Below, piece after piece: positions 43,226-50,250 of a DNA stretch of 64,000 bases. Position numbers and translations under genes: made by a program. Position 1 is the first letter of the stretch, and each line of letters begins with the position of its first letter. The notes below the pieces were generated by a model that ran no database searches, had not been told where the DNA came from, and saw only the letters and a list, made by a program, of their open reading frames with translations. This stretch comes from Meridianimaribacter flavus. GTDB taxonomy: Bacteria; Bacteroidota; Bacteroidia; Flavobacteriales; Flavobacteriaceae. The DNA is taken from assembly GCF_004366715.1 (NCBI RefSeq), contig NZ_SOQZ01000001.1, positions 310,001-374,000 of the forward strand, in the 5' to 3' direction.

Positions 43226-44095
43226 TTATAAATTCTTAAGATAGTTATCGGTCTTTGTTATGGCTTTTTCGTTTTTCCAATCTATCCAGTTCTGTCCTTT
43301 AATTCTACGCATTATATTATCAAAATGTCTCATAATAAAAATATTGTATAGCGCTTTTGATAAATTTTTAGGACGCTTTGCTATAGATCTTAGACTCATA
43401 GAAAAGCCTGGGGTCACATATTTCATGTAATGCCAATAGCCTTCAGGCATATAAAGGACTTCCCCATGGTTGAGTTCAGTAGTGTAACCTTTTGCATGTT
43501 GTAATGCTGGCCATTTTTTGAAATCTGGATTGGAAAAATCAATATCTTCTCTTGTGATTAAAGAGTGAGGTACTTTATATAGATACTTGTTTTGTTTTTG
43601 GTCAAAAAGGATAATTTGTTTTTTACCTTCAAAATGAAAATGAAAAATATTAGCCAAATCAATATCATAATGCATAAAGGTATAAGAGTCTTCTCCACCA
43701 AAAAATAACATTGGTAGTCCTTTCATTAAGCGAATACCAAAATTAGGATAGCTAAAATCTTTTTGAAGTTGAGGTACTTCTTTTAAAATGTTCCAAAGAA
43801 AAATACGATAACGTGTAGGTTCTTTTTTAAGTAAATCTACATAGTCGCGCATTTTCATTTTAGCATGTGGCTCGTTAAAACCGTCTTTATAATCAACAGG
43901 TCTGTCGTCATAAAGTGGTACGGTTTTATCACCAGCAACCGACTTCATATAGTCTAAATTCCATTTGGAATACGCAGGCCAATCTTCGATAAAACGCTCT
44001 ATAACCACAGGTTTTTGTGGTTTGTAATAGTGTTTTATGAAATCCTCTTTAGTGATGGTTTTTACTCGAGGGATGTCCTGAAGTTGTAATTTCAA
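43226..44095 (-). CDS. cupin-like (JmjC-type) iron/2-oxoglutarate dioxygenase-family protein
   Basis: 289 residues. The layout is that of Cupin_8/FIH-like JmjC proteins: an N-terminal KPVVIERFIEDWPAYSKWNL, the metal motif H-x-D in SYTFMHYDIDLANIFHFHFE, a strand KKQIILFDQ, and the distal His in GEVLYMPEGYWHYMKYV. JmjC-type enzymes hydroxylate protein side chains or small molecules; the substrate here is unknown. A -7-like CAAAGTTA complement lies at 44115-44122, about 20 bases before the start. Confidence 0.88.
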   Translation of the reverse strand: MKLQLQDIPRVKTITKEDFIKHYYKPQKPVVIERFIEDWPAYSKWNLDYMKSVAGDKTVPLYDDRPVDYKDGFNEPHAKMKMRDYVDLLKKEPTRYRIFLWNILKEVPQLQKDFSYPNFGIRLMKGLPMLFFGGEDSYTFMHYDIDLANIFHFHFEGKKQIILFDQKQNKYLYKVPHSLITREDIDFSNPDFKKWPALQHAKGYTTELNHGEVLYMPEGYWHYMKYVTPGFSMSLRSIAKRPKNLSKALYNIFIMRHFDNIMRRIKGQNWIDWKNEKAITKTDNYLKNL

Positions 44096-46859: not shown

Positions 46860-48677
46860 TTATCTAAAGTTATAACGCAACCCAAATAATACATTGCTTG
46901 GAGGCATTGGAACAAATCCTGACTCAATGTAATCTACATCAAAAATGTTGTTTGCAGTTACACTAAACTCAGCAGATTTTACTTTTACAATAACTGATGC
47001 ATCCCAAACATTGTAAGTTTGTCCTGTAGTACGTTCGGCATATTTATAAACTATGTTTTGTCTTACATTTTTAAATAATTGAGAGCTAAACCTAGTAATG
47101 TATTGGTGTTTTAATGTGTTTAATGAGTAACGTGATAAATCTTCGTTTTGATCTAAAATGTTATCATCTAAGTATGAATAGCCAAAGCCTAATGTTTGTT
47201 TATAGTTATTAATGTTGAAGTTATAGGCAGCATCAAACTCTAGTCCTTTGGTATTAACTTCGGTAATATTGGTAGCTGTGAAAGTGTCTTCAGACACGTC
47301 TGTTCTTACATAATCAATTAAATTTTTTGCATCTCTGTTAAACGCTGCAATGCTAGCTGTAAGTTTTGCTGAAGTATATTTAAGACCTACTTCTTGTGCA
47401 AAAGCTTCTTCGGGTTCTAAGTTAGAATTTCCTTGGGTAACAGGGTCGCTATAATACAAGTCAGTGTAAGTAGGAATACGATAGGTATATCCAATATTTC
47501 CGTAAGCTTTTAAACGGTCTGAAATGTCATAACCAATATCTAAACCTGGAAATGCATGAAACTTAAAATCGGAAAAGTAAGTTAGTGCAACACCAGGAGT
47601 AACATCTAGTTTGTCATTAGCAAATTTAAATTGATGTTCAACAAAAGCTGTAGCCATAAAGCGGTTACGTTGTCCAAGGTTATTACTACTAATGTAAACT
47701 TGGGATAAATCGATACCAAATCCTGTTACACCTGCTTTTGAAGTATAAGATGCATTGGCTTCAGCTCCTATTTTGTTTGTAATATGAAGGTTTCTGTAAA
47801 AACTAGGTTCTTCTCTACGTAGTAAAAAGAGGTCTTGGTTTCTTTTCCAGTAAACCCTTGGTTGTATCTTTAATTTGTTTGAAGCAAATTTTGTTGTAAA
47901 TGCTAAAAGGCTATTTTGAGTTTCTTCGTACTCAAAAAATGTTGGGTTTGTGGTGTAAAAATTTTGAGCACCAAACTTTCTATCCATAAAGGTAGCAAGC
48001 ATTTCAATAGGTTTATGTTTAGTATTGAAAATACTTTTCAAAAAGAAATTGGTGTTATCATAATCGGTATTTGTGCGATATCCATCCGAAGTCATTTTTC
48101 CTGCATGCACTAGGTGTTGAGAATTTTCAAGCGAACTAGCAGCGGTTATTGAACCGTTAAGTTGACCGAAAGAACCTGCTTCTGCATTAACAGACACTGA
48201 TGTGTCTAATTTGTTTTTGGTAACAATATTGATGGCACCATTAAAGGCGTTTTGGCCAAATATTCTAGCAGCAGGACCTTTAACAATTTCAATACGCTCA
48301 ATAACTTCTAGCGGAAGTGCAGCATTCATAGTATGATGACCTGTTTGAGCATCGTCCATTTTTATACCATCAATTAGTAATAAGGTTTGATCAAAACCAC
48401 CACCTCTTATGTATAAATCGGCTTGACTGCCTCCAGTACCACGACGTCTAATGTCAACTCCTGCAAATTGCTGAAGTAAATCAGCAACATTAGTTGCTGC
48501 GCTATTTTTTATATCCTTACTTGATATAACAGTAATGGTTCTTGAGTTTTCTTTAAACGGAACATCGATTCGTGTTGAAGTTATTACAACCGAGTCTAGA
48601 TTTTGTTCCTCTAGTTCTTGAGCTTGTATTGATAATGAAAAAATAAAAAGTACAGTAAATAAAGAGATTGCTCTCAT
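46860..48677 (-). CDS. TonB-dependent receptor, BtuB/CirA-like
   Basis: 605 residues from the ATG at 48677. Signal peptide MRAISLFTVLFIFSLSIQA, plug domain (DSVVITSTRIDVPFKENSRT, AATNVADLLQQFAGVDIRRR, LLLIDGIKMDDAQTGHHTMN, VKGPAARIFGQNAFNGAINI) and a beta barrel ending SNVLFGLRYNFR. There is no carboxypeptidase-like N-domain. The pattern is that of B12/siderophore receptors; the ligand is unknown. A frame from 48779 would add 34 residues, overlap the divergent regulator and hide the signal peptide, so it is rejected. Possibly controlled by the MocR-like protein divergently encoded. Confidence 0.92.
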   Translation of the reverse strand: MRAISLFTVLFIFSLSIQAQELEEQNLDSVVITSTRIDVPFKENSRTITVISSKDIKNSAATNVADLLQQFAGVDIRRRGTGGSQADLYIRGGGFDQTLLLIDGIKMDDAQTGHHTMNAALPLEVIERIEIVKGPAARIFGQNAFNGAINIVTKNKLDTSVSVNAEAGSFGQLNGSITAASSLENSQHLVHAGKMTSDGYRTNTDYDNTNFFLKSIFNTKHKPIEMLATFMDRKFGAQNFYTTNPTFFEYEETQNSLLAFTTKFASNKLKIQPRVYWKRNQDLFLLRREEPSFYRNLHITNKIGAEANASYTSKAGVTGFGIDLSQVYISSNNLGQRNRFMATAFVEHQFKFANDKLDVTPGVALTYFSDFKFHAFPGLDIGYDISDRLKAYGNIGYTYRIPTYTDLYYSDPVTQGNSNLEPEEAFAQEVGLKYTSAKLTASIAAFNRDAKNLIDYVRTDVSEDTFTATNITEVNTKGLEFDAAYNFNINNYKQTLGFGYSYLDDNILDQNEDLSRYSLNTLKHQYITRFSSQLFKNVRQNIVYKYAERTTGQTYNVWDASVIVKVKSAEFSVTANNIFDVDYIESGFVPMPPSNVLFGLRYNFR

Positions 48678-48738
48678 AATATAAATAGTTTTCGTGTTTT
48701 TAACGCTGCAAAAGTCGTAACTTTCCGGATCATTAAAA

Positions 48739-48771
48739 TAGTCCAGTTTTAAAACAATGAGTAGTCCGGTT
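48739..48771. promoter_or_regulatory. TAGTCC direct repeat, candidate MocR operator
   Basis: TAGTCCAGTT at 48739-48748 and TAGTCCGGTT at 48762-48771 match at 9 of 10 positions, with starts 23 nt apart on the same face of the helix. They straddle the MocR-like gene's ATG (48757). MocR/GabR proteins bind paired direct repeats, so autoregulation and control of the divergent receptor gene is a reasonable inference. Confidence 0.5.
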
Positions 48772-50250
48772 GAAGACAATCTTAAATCCTTAATTACATT
48801 TGATAAAGCGTCAAGTACTTCGGTTTATATTCAAATTGCACAGCAAATGGTAAATGCTATCCAAAGAGGTTATTTACATGAAGGAATAGCACTTCCAGGA
48901 ACACGAAAATTTGGTGAGATATTATCTATTAATAGAAATACAGCTGTTGCTGTTTATGATGAGTTAGCATCGCAAGGTTGGGTTGATATTGTACCCAATA
49001 AAGGAACGTTTGTACTGATGCCAGAGCAAAAAACTGCTGCTATTAAAGCAGCATCGCAAAGTATTGAACACTTAACAGCATATCCAGAAACTACAGGTTT
49101 TCCGTTTCAACTGTCTTTCAATTTGGCTTCTACCGAAGAAACAACACAATGTAATTATGTGATTAACGATGGTCAACCAGATTTAAGGTTGCATCCTACG
49201 CATCAGTTTTCAAGATGGTATAGTGCTTCTATGAAACGAACTGCTTTAATTTCTAAATGGAATCAAACTCACGAGCAATCGCATTCAACATTCAATATAC
49301 AATTGTGTAATTACCTTAATGCTACACGTGGGTTTCATATAAAACCGCATAACATTTTAAGTACAAGAAGTACTGAAATGAGTTTGTACATTGTATCTCG
49401 ACTACTTATTCAACAAAATGACATTGTACTTGTAGGCGATTTAAGTCACTACAAGTCTAATATGATTTTTCAACAGGCAGGAGCAACGCTAAAGACAATT
49501 CCTGTTGATGCTAATGGTATTGATGTAGATTTTATTGAAAGACATTTTACCAAAGGAAGCATACGTTGCGTTTATGTTTGTGCGCATAGGCAGTATCCAA
49601 CTACAGTAACACTTTCTGCTGAAAGACGTTTAAAGCTATTACAGTTAGCAAAGGTTTATGGTTTTGCTATTATTGAAGATGATTTTGACTACGATTTTCA
49701 ATTTGATGGGTCTGCAATGTTACCAATGGCAAGTGCAGATGCTGAAGGTGTTGTTATCTATTTAGGACGATTGGGTCAGTCGTTTTTCCCAAGTTTTCAA
49801 GCTGGTTTTATAGTAGCTCCTCAAACTATTATTAAAGAAGTGAACAATTACTTGCAAATTTTGGATAAGCAAGGTGATTTAATTCAAAAGCAAATGCTTG
49901 CAGAACTTATTAATGAAGGTGAGATACACCGTTTAATTAAAAAGAATATTACCATTTATAAAGCAAGACGCGATTATTTAATTTCTTGTTTACAACATCA
50001 TTTTAGCGATGACTTGTATTGGAAAGTGCCTACTGGTGGCTTAGCCATTTGGTTACATTTTAAACCTAGTATATCGCTTGCTAAACTTGCTGAAAAAACT
50101 AAAGCGCGAAATTTATTGTTGCCAAAAACAATACTGTATCAAAGCAAAACTATTTGCGCTATTAGGTTTGGCTATGGACATTTAAATGAAGATGAAATAA
50201 CTGCAGTCGTTACTATTTTAAAAGAGTCTTACACGGCAATTGGCAATTAA
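48757..50250 (+). CDS. MocR-like (GntR plus aminotransferase fold) regulator lacking the PLP lysine
   Basis: 497 residues. An N-terminal GntR winged helix (about 20-88: SVYIQIAQQMVNAIQRG, LPGTRKFGEILSINRNTAVA) is joined to a full type I aminotransferase fold. In normal MocR proteins the segment G-x-F-(S/G)-K-(T/S)-x-x-P carries the PLP lysine; here the matching segment YLGRLGQSFFPSF has Gln341 instead (codon CAG, 49777-49779). EDDYD is EDDFD, so the PLP-phenol-contacting Tyr is Phe310. The carboxylate-binding Arg (AIRFGYGH) remains. It therefore may sense a ligand without an internal aldimine. It faces a TonB receptor gene across an 80-base spacer. Confidence 0.9.
   Translation: MSSPVEDNLKSLITFDKASSTSVYIQIAQQMVNAIQRGYLHEGIALPGTRKFGEILSINRNTAVAVYDELASQGWVDIVPNKGTFVLMPEQKTAAIKAASQSIEHLTAYPETTGFPFQLSFNLASTEETTQCNYVINDGQPDLRLHPTHQFSRWYSASMKRTALISKWNQTHEQSHSTFNIQLCNYLNATRGFHIKPHNILSTRSTEMSLYIVSRLLIQQNDIVLVGDLSHYKSNMIFQQAGATLKTIPVDANGIDVDFIERHFTKGSIRCVYVCAHRQYPTTVTLSAERRLKLLQLAKVYGFAIIEDDFDYDFQFDGSAMLPMASADAEGVVIYLGRLGQSFFPSFQAGFIVAPQTIIKEVNNYLQILDKQGDLIQKQMLAELINEGEIHRLIKKNITIYKARRDYLISCLQHHFSDDLYWKVPTGGLAIWLHFKPSISLAKLAEKTKARNLLLPKTILYQSKTICAIRFGYGHLNEDEITAVVTILKESYTAIGN

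Follow-up and report, generated by a model that had tools for sequence, protein, structure and literature searches.

A BioL-related MocR regulator without the PLP lysine faces a TonB-dependent receptor and probably serves biotin or desthiobiotin salvage in Flavobacteriaceae

Introduction

MocR regulators are taken as PLP-dependent by definition, and the lysine that forms the Schiff base with PLP has been described as conserved in all MocR clusters (PMC6677901). In a GabR-type response, an amine ligand exchanges with this lysine to give an external aldimine (PMC8739950), and in a survey of MocR operators the commonest layout was direct repeats with one inverted box (PMC5320631). The closest described relative of the protein studied here is BioL, a MocR repressor of bioEFD and bioBA. 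BioL mutants K340A and R50A lose function, with K340A abolishing repression, and the bioE-F-D-B-A arrangement has been reported for Elizabethkingia and Chryseobacterium (PMC12915131). In summary form, the same source gives the BioL ligand as 8-amino-7-oxononanoate. Separately, desthiobiotin can support growth of a bioB-only organism, and the route by which this vitamer is taken up is recorded as unknown (PMC9561691).

Here we describe a 64,000-nucleotide stretch of the Meridianimaribacter flavus genome (the window; contig NZ_SOQZ01000001.1, positions 310,001 to 374,000) in which a MocR-type regulator carries glutamine in place of the PLP lysine. BioL is already known (2025). A literature search that covered the main text of PMC5320631 and few subscription papers found neither a MocR clade lacking the PLP lysine nor a MocR-controlled biotin TonB receptor.

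Results

The regulator belongs to the BioL branch of MocR proteins

The regulator and its two domains lie at the following positions.

48757..50250, plus strand: MocR-type regulator, BioL-like, 497 aa, PLP lysine replaced by Gln (open reading frame and alignment)
48826..49014, plus strand: GntR wHTH, aa 24-86, including Arg50 (Pfam)
49147..50247, plus strand: aminotransferase-fold sensor domain, about aa 131-497 (Pfam, AlphaFold2 and structure search)

The protein has MocR architecture, with an N-terminal GntR wHTH and a C-terminal fold-type-I aminotransferase domain (Pfam Aminotran_1_2, aa 150-452). Its AlphaFold2 model was confident (mean pLDDT 87.7), and structure searches revealed that full-length matches were led by GabR and Bacillus clausii PdxR and that aminotransferases matched the C-terminal domain with Z near 42. 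Arg50 of the wHTH, the counterpart of the R50 that BioL requires, is invariant in a 56-row alignment. Of the named NCBIfam models, PdxR (NF052282) came closest, with the regulator scoring 274.7 bits against it, below the curated cut-off of 320. The neighbours that recur beside Q-type regulators (i.e., those with Gln at position 341) are a TonB receptor and bioB, not B6 genes; neither this gene context nor the sub-cut-off score supports a B6 regulator.

We built a 72-row tree without the columns around position 341, by a quick search that left several forks open. All biotin-linked regulators, whether Q-type, lysine-type or TonB-linked, formed one clade (SH-aLRT 100), which places the window protein with regulators adjoining bioE-F-D-B-A. 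Lysine-bearing relatives at 45-49% identity, found in a Chryseobacterium-type genus and others, face this operon, which consists of genes for an unannotated 207-aa protein, bioF, bioD, bioB and bioA. From operon content and size, we take the lysine-bearing sisters to be BioL and the 207-aa protein to be BioE. An open reading frame of 170-217 aa occupies the lysine-type bio operons at L157:4807-5427 and at equivalent places in L158, L206, L207 and L111; by position it is probably BioE, a diiron oxygenase, and the L157 copy, the one searched, had no Pfam or NCBIfam match. By descent and fold, the window protein is a MocR of the BioL branch. It lacks the PLP lysine of a working MocR or BioL, and we thus file it as a BioL-related variant and not as a PLP-dependent member.

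PLP contacts are lost together in a conserved glutamine clade

The pocket positions below are named for roles established in GabR and aspartate aminotransferase and transferred by alignment, which we take to hold for this protein.

49777..49779, plus strand: codon 341, CAG, Gln in the PLP-lysine column (BioL K340, GabR K312; alignment)
49798..49800, plus strand: codon 348, Gln replacing the PLP-phosphate Arg (alignment)
49768..49770, plus strand: codon 338, Arg (Lys in most orthologs) replacing the phosphate-binding Ser/Thr (alignment)
49447..49449, plus strand: codon 231, His (Asn or His in the clade) replacing the ring-stacking Tyr (alignment)
49678..49680, plus strand: codon 308, retained pyridine-nitrogen Asp (alignment)
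49684..49686, plus strand: codon 310, Phe, not diagnostic (alignment)
50164..50166, plus strand: codon 470, retained ligand-carboxylate Arg (alignment)

A phmmer comparison aligned Gln341 to the Lys of 'YLGAFSKSLIPSVR' in Bacillus clausii PdxR (7pq9), and column 341 was free of gaps in alignments of well over a hundred relatives. The two agree in placing Gln341 in the PLP-lysine column, as a preliminary description of this locus had claimed. That description had also suggested looking for a conserved subfamily, and one exists: among Flavobacteriaceae orthologs 54-79% identical to the regulator (the Q clade), 105 of 106 have Gln at 341 and one has Lys. The residue is conserved and not drifting, because it is held in 105/106 proteins while both of its codons are in use (CAA 73, CAG 33). 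The Schiff-base lysine of MocR proteins, essential in BioL as K340, is therefore missing from the window protein and almost all of its orthologs. All 20 non-biotin MocRs in our sample (33-38% identity), which lie outside the biotin-linked clade, keep Lys341 and Arg348, as does PdxR.

Three further changes that the preliminary description did not contain accompany the loss of the lysine, namely phosphate Arg to Gln348, phosphate Ser to Arg338 and stacking Tyr to His231. Position 348 is Q, H or E in every Q-clade member, so the phosphate-binding Arg of the MocR subfamily is gone; position 338 is K or R throughout (Arg in 28/106); position 231 is mostly N or H; and His278 has become Arg. At every position changed in the Q clade, its lysine-bearing sister clade is canonical. 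Two contacts persist in all 106 proteins: Asp308, the pyridine-nitrogen residue expected of a MocR, and Arg470, which bears out the earlier statement that the substrate-carboxylate Arg is kept. The Tyr to Phe change at 310, which the preliminary description had paired with the lost lysine, is real and yet not part of the signature, since either residue occurs in the lysine-bearing sisters and Y also in 21 of 108 Q-clade proteins. Lys338 could in principle be considered as a replacement Schiff base, but the window protein has Arg338 and its neighbouring residue thus cannot stand in for the lysine. One Q-clade protein, from Lutibacter citreus (L083), is the sole member with Lys341 (AAG); it retains Gln348 and Lys338, and its genome lacks bioA and bioB.

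At the level of sequence, then, the Q clade has lost the lysine and other PLP contacts. Covalent PLP has almost certainly been lost from the Q-type regulator, which would very probably work independently of PLP in practice. These results uphold the earlier proposal of a preserved fold whose cofactor chemistry is lost, given the model's match to GabR and PdxR, the near-invariant Gln and the parallel loss of other PLP contacts. PLP or PMP might instead still be held without a covalent bond, Gln341 and Lys/Arg338 making up for the lost aldimine and phosphate contacts, so that the protein would report B6 or an amine-PLP adduct. The invariant Asp308, the basic residue at 338 and the PdxR model, the nearest named one despite its score, would fit such binding. 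However, the phosphate Arg, the phosphate Ser and the stacking Tyr were lost along with the lysine, and the recurring neighbours are a TonB receptor and bioB rather than B6 genes. We consider residual PLP binding quite improbable.

Position 341 has changed repeatedly within the biotin-linked clade

Unordered parsimony on the 72-row tree revealed at least eight changes of state at position 341 inside the biotin-linked clade, a number of independent events that is approximate because the quick tree has several open forks, and parsimony cannot order loss against regain. Lysine loss outside the Flavobacteriaceae Gln clade likewise always falls within the biotin-linked clade. The other non-lysine state, Arg, occurs in at least three places: L208 (which adjoins bioB), L113 and the g127/f55 group, whose members vary between Lys and Arg; some g127 relatives have no adjacent TonB or bio gene. 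Biotin-linked MocRs with Arg in this column comprise L160, L202, L203, L205, L208, L209, L220 and L113. In one genus of Arg341-bearing MocRs, Lys and Arg alternate among close relatives and the phosphate Arg is Ser or Gly. Because the changes recur inside the clade, the biotin-linked lineage seems prone to release from PLP, with Gln fixed in one branch.

If PLP is gone, the ligand might be gone as well, leaving a constitutive local repressor, or an architectural activator, of the TonB receptor gene whose aminotransferase domain serves dimerisation only. An EnuR variant in which His replaces the PLP lysine is still dimeric and represses constitutively (PMC8739950), and MpaR K314A has lost activation (PMC10790758). 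An empty pocket should drift, as position 341 does between K and R in the g127 group, but in the Q clade Gln341, Gln348, Lys/Arg338, Asp308 and Arg470 are near-invariant. We thus regard a ligand-free regulator as unlikely and favor one whose remodelled pocket is still in use.

The regulator faces a TonB-dependent receptor in genomes depleted of biotin synthesis genes

The gene opposite the regulator, which the preliminary description had called a TonB receptor, is indeed one.

46860..48677, minus strand: BtuB-like TonB-dependent receptor, 605 aa, divergent from the regulator, proposed biotin/desthiobiotin receptor

The pairing of regulator and TonB receptor, and the proposed loss of cofactor chemistry, have thus held up from the earlier account; the connection to biotin was not part of it. 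A BtuB-like TonB-dependent receptor starts divergently just upstream of every Q-clade regulator with a readable flank. Close behind the receptor in many genera lies a Cupin_8 protein gene (43226-44095, minus strand, in the window; relatives 76-86% identical), and in the window the two are separated by a 212-aa NfeD-like gene and a flotillin gene.

Among 38 Q-clade genomes, nine have bioB, and in eight of these nine it sits 1.9-2.1 kb from the regulator, directly behind the receptor, a proximity expected by chance at about 1e-20. More cases of bioB behind the receptor occur in other genera. One Lutibacter (L101) has bioB convergent on the far side of the regulator, not behind the TonB receptor. 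Only 2/38 Q-clade genomes have bioA, compared with 20 of 21 related genomes without a Q-type regulator that have both bioB and bioA, counts that ignore shared ancestry. The genome of the window itself, which is 99.99% complete, has neither bioB nor bioA above cut-off.

These genomes might suggest that the lysine was lost once the amine intermediate was no longer made. Regulators in Flavihumibacter and Vaginella, however, keep Lys and Arg348 and face TonB receptors in genomes without bioA or bioB, so loss of synthesis alone cannot explain loss of the lysine; together with L083, they rule it out as a full explanation.

Among solved structures, that of the B12 receptor BtuB comes closest to the receptor. 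In NCBIfam the best match was the B12-receptor model TIGR01779, with a score (177.4 bits) far below the curated cut-off of 599.7. Biotin as cargo therefore rests on gene context. Cobalamin or another large nutrient could instead be imported and the regulator could follow that pathway, the biotin link being ancestral only, as the BtuB homology and the B12 model (177 against 600 bits) might suggest. Against this, bioB lies directly behind the receptor in most bioB-bearing Q-clade genomes, the sister clade faces biotin operons, and it is exactly the Q-clade genomes that are depleted in biotin synthesis genes. A cobalamin receptor is thus very improbable, and biotin or desthiobiotin is the probable cargo.

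A conserved putative operator reaches into the regulator gene

The intergenic elements were as follows; both -7 assignments assume a promoter consensus.

48709..48716, minus strand: possible -7 element of the TonB receptor gene, GACTTTTG, strongly conserved
48718..48725, plus strand: possible -7 element of the regulator gene, TAACTTTC, near-invariant
48725..48732, no strand assigned: operator box in inverted orientation (CCGGATCA; conservation)
48739..48748, plus strand: operator direct box 1, TAGTCCAGTT (conservation)
48762..48771, plus strand: operator direct box 2, TAGTCCGGTT, within regulator codons 2-5 and 23 bp from box 1

About 65 bp between the regulator and receptor genes is almost frozen across genera, reaching into codons 2-5 of the regulator. 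The predicted operator within it consists of two direct TAGTCC boxes at a spacing of 23 bp, together with one inverted box, and these predicted boxes would match the surveyed MocR layout of direct repeats plus one inverted box. Codons 3, 4 and 5 hold the top three ranks, in that order, for synonymous conservation (measured as use of a single codon) among the 121 positions where the amino acid is conserved and the codon degenerate, which argues for selection on the DNA and not on the protein alone. The overlap of box 2 with the start of the regulator gene suggests autoregulation.

Each Q-clade genome has one strong operator site, and G254 and G539 carry one more; the regulator therefore looks local. 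The additional site in G254 (L130, G254:C1:1-1279) belongs to a second, degraded copy of the regulator with several stops, where the operator is still recognisable. That in G539 (L225, G539:C14:208972-209034) is weaker, has the same GTCCA boxes, and lies at a paralogous MocR with a different N-terminus, near a gene that by eye resembles pyridoxamine-phosphate oxidases; because it belongs to this separate paralog, it was rejected as a Q-type target. A wider regulon in the genome of the window was likewise rejected, since there is one strong site and the three strongest weak matches are all inside genes.

Discussion

Operator conservation, linkage to TonB and bioB genes, and grouping with regulators in BioL context are all apparent from comparison of the DNA and protein sequences. 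A role of the Q-type regulator in biotin or desthiobiotin salvage is probable. On balance, we favor a PLP-lysine-less BioL variant that controls this salvage in response to a ligand without an amine, probably biotin or desthiobiotin. That either vitamer binds the regulator directly is a tentative proposal. Stated in full, the hypothesis that the PLP lysine of BioL-type regulators was lost repeatedly, and that the Gln clade is a cofactor-free biotin/desthiobiotin sensor controlling an undescribed TonB vitamin transporter, is plausible, although we stop short of calling it probable.

In the favored mechanism, a variant of the Weeksellaceae biotin regulator BioL, itself a MocR protein, would have given up PLP, leaving an aminotransferase-fold pocket in which no internal aldimine could form. 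A carboxylate ligand without an amine (i.e., biotin or desthiobiotin) would be bound through the kept Arg470 and the remodelled pocket. Because amine sensing through an external aldimine is closed to the Q-type regulator and bioA is missing from most genomes that carry it, a non-amine vitamer would be the simplest ligand; and because the lysine is lost across a branch whose members face a probable biotin receptor, the signal is likely sensed without the cofactor. By analogy to BioL, we infer the sign of regulation, and expect repression when the vitamin is plentiful and expression of the receptor when it is scarce.

A widespread and conserved lysine-less clade would offer a natural test of sensing by an aminotransferase fold without cofactor chemistry, and the receptor is a candidate outer-membrane importer of biotin or desthiobiotin in marine flavobacteria. 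Annotating such proteins as PLP-dependent, or as B6 regulators because PdxR is the nearest model, would be misleading.

BioL of Elizabethkingia and Chryseobacterium shares with the window protein its architecture, clade, wHTH Arg50, biotin-linked targets and divergent operator. Unlike BioL, which needs K340 for PLP and senses the amine 8-amino-7-oxononanoate, the window protein has Gln and has lost the phosphate Arg; and whereas BioL targets bioEFD and bioBA, the Q-type regulator adjoins a TonB receptor gene as its target, sometimes together with bioB, and its genome usually lacks bioA. GabR of Bacillus subtilis and PdxR of Bacillus clausii likewise combine a wHTH with a fold-type-I aminotransferase domain, direct-repeat operators and a divergent target, but they bind PLP through the lysine lost here and respond to GABA or PLP. 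BioR (GntR, Alphaproteobacteria), BioQ (TetR) and BirA also control biotin synthesis or uptake at the level of transcription, with sensor domains that differ from that of the Q-type regulator; BioR is a GntR protein without an aminotransferase domain. Finally, marine bacteria that scavenge desthiobiotin have bioB without bioA (PMC9561691), as do several Q-clade members. The text of that report states that the route of cell entry is unknown and does not mention a TonB receptor, whereas in the Q clade bioB follows one.
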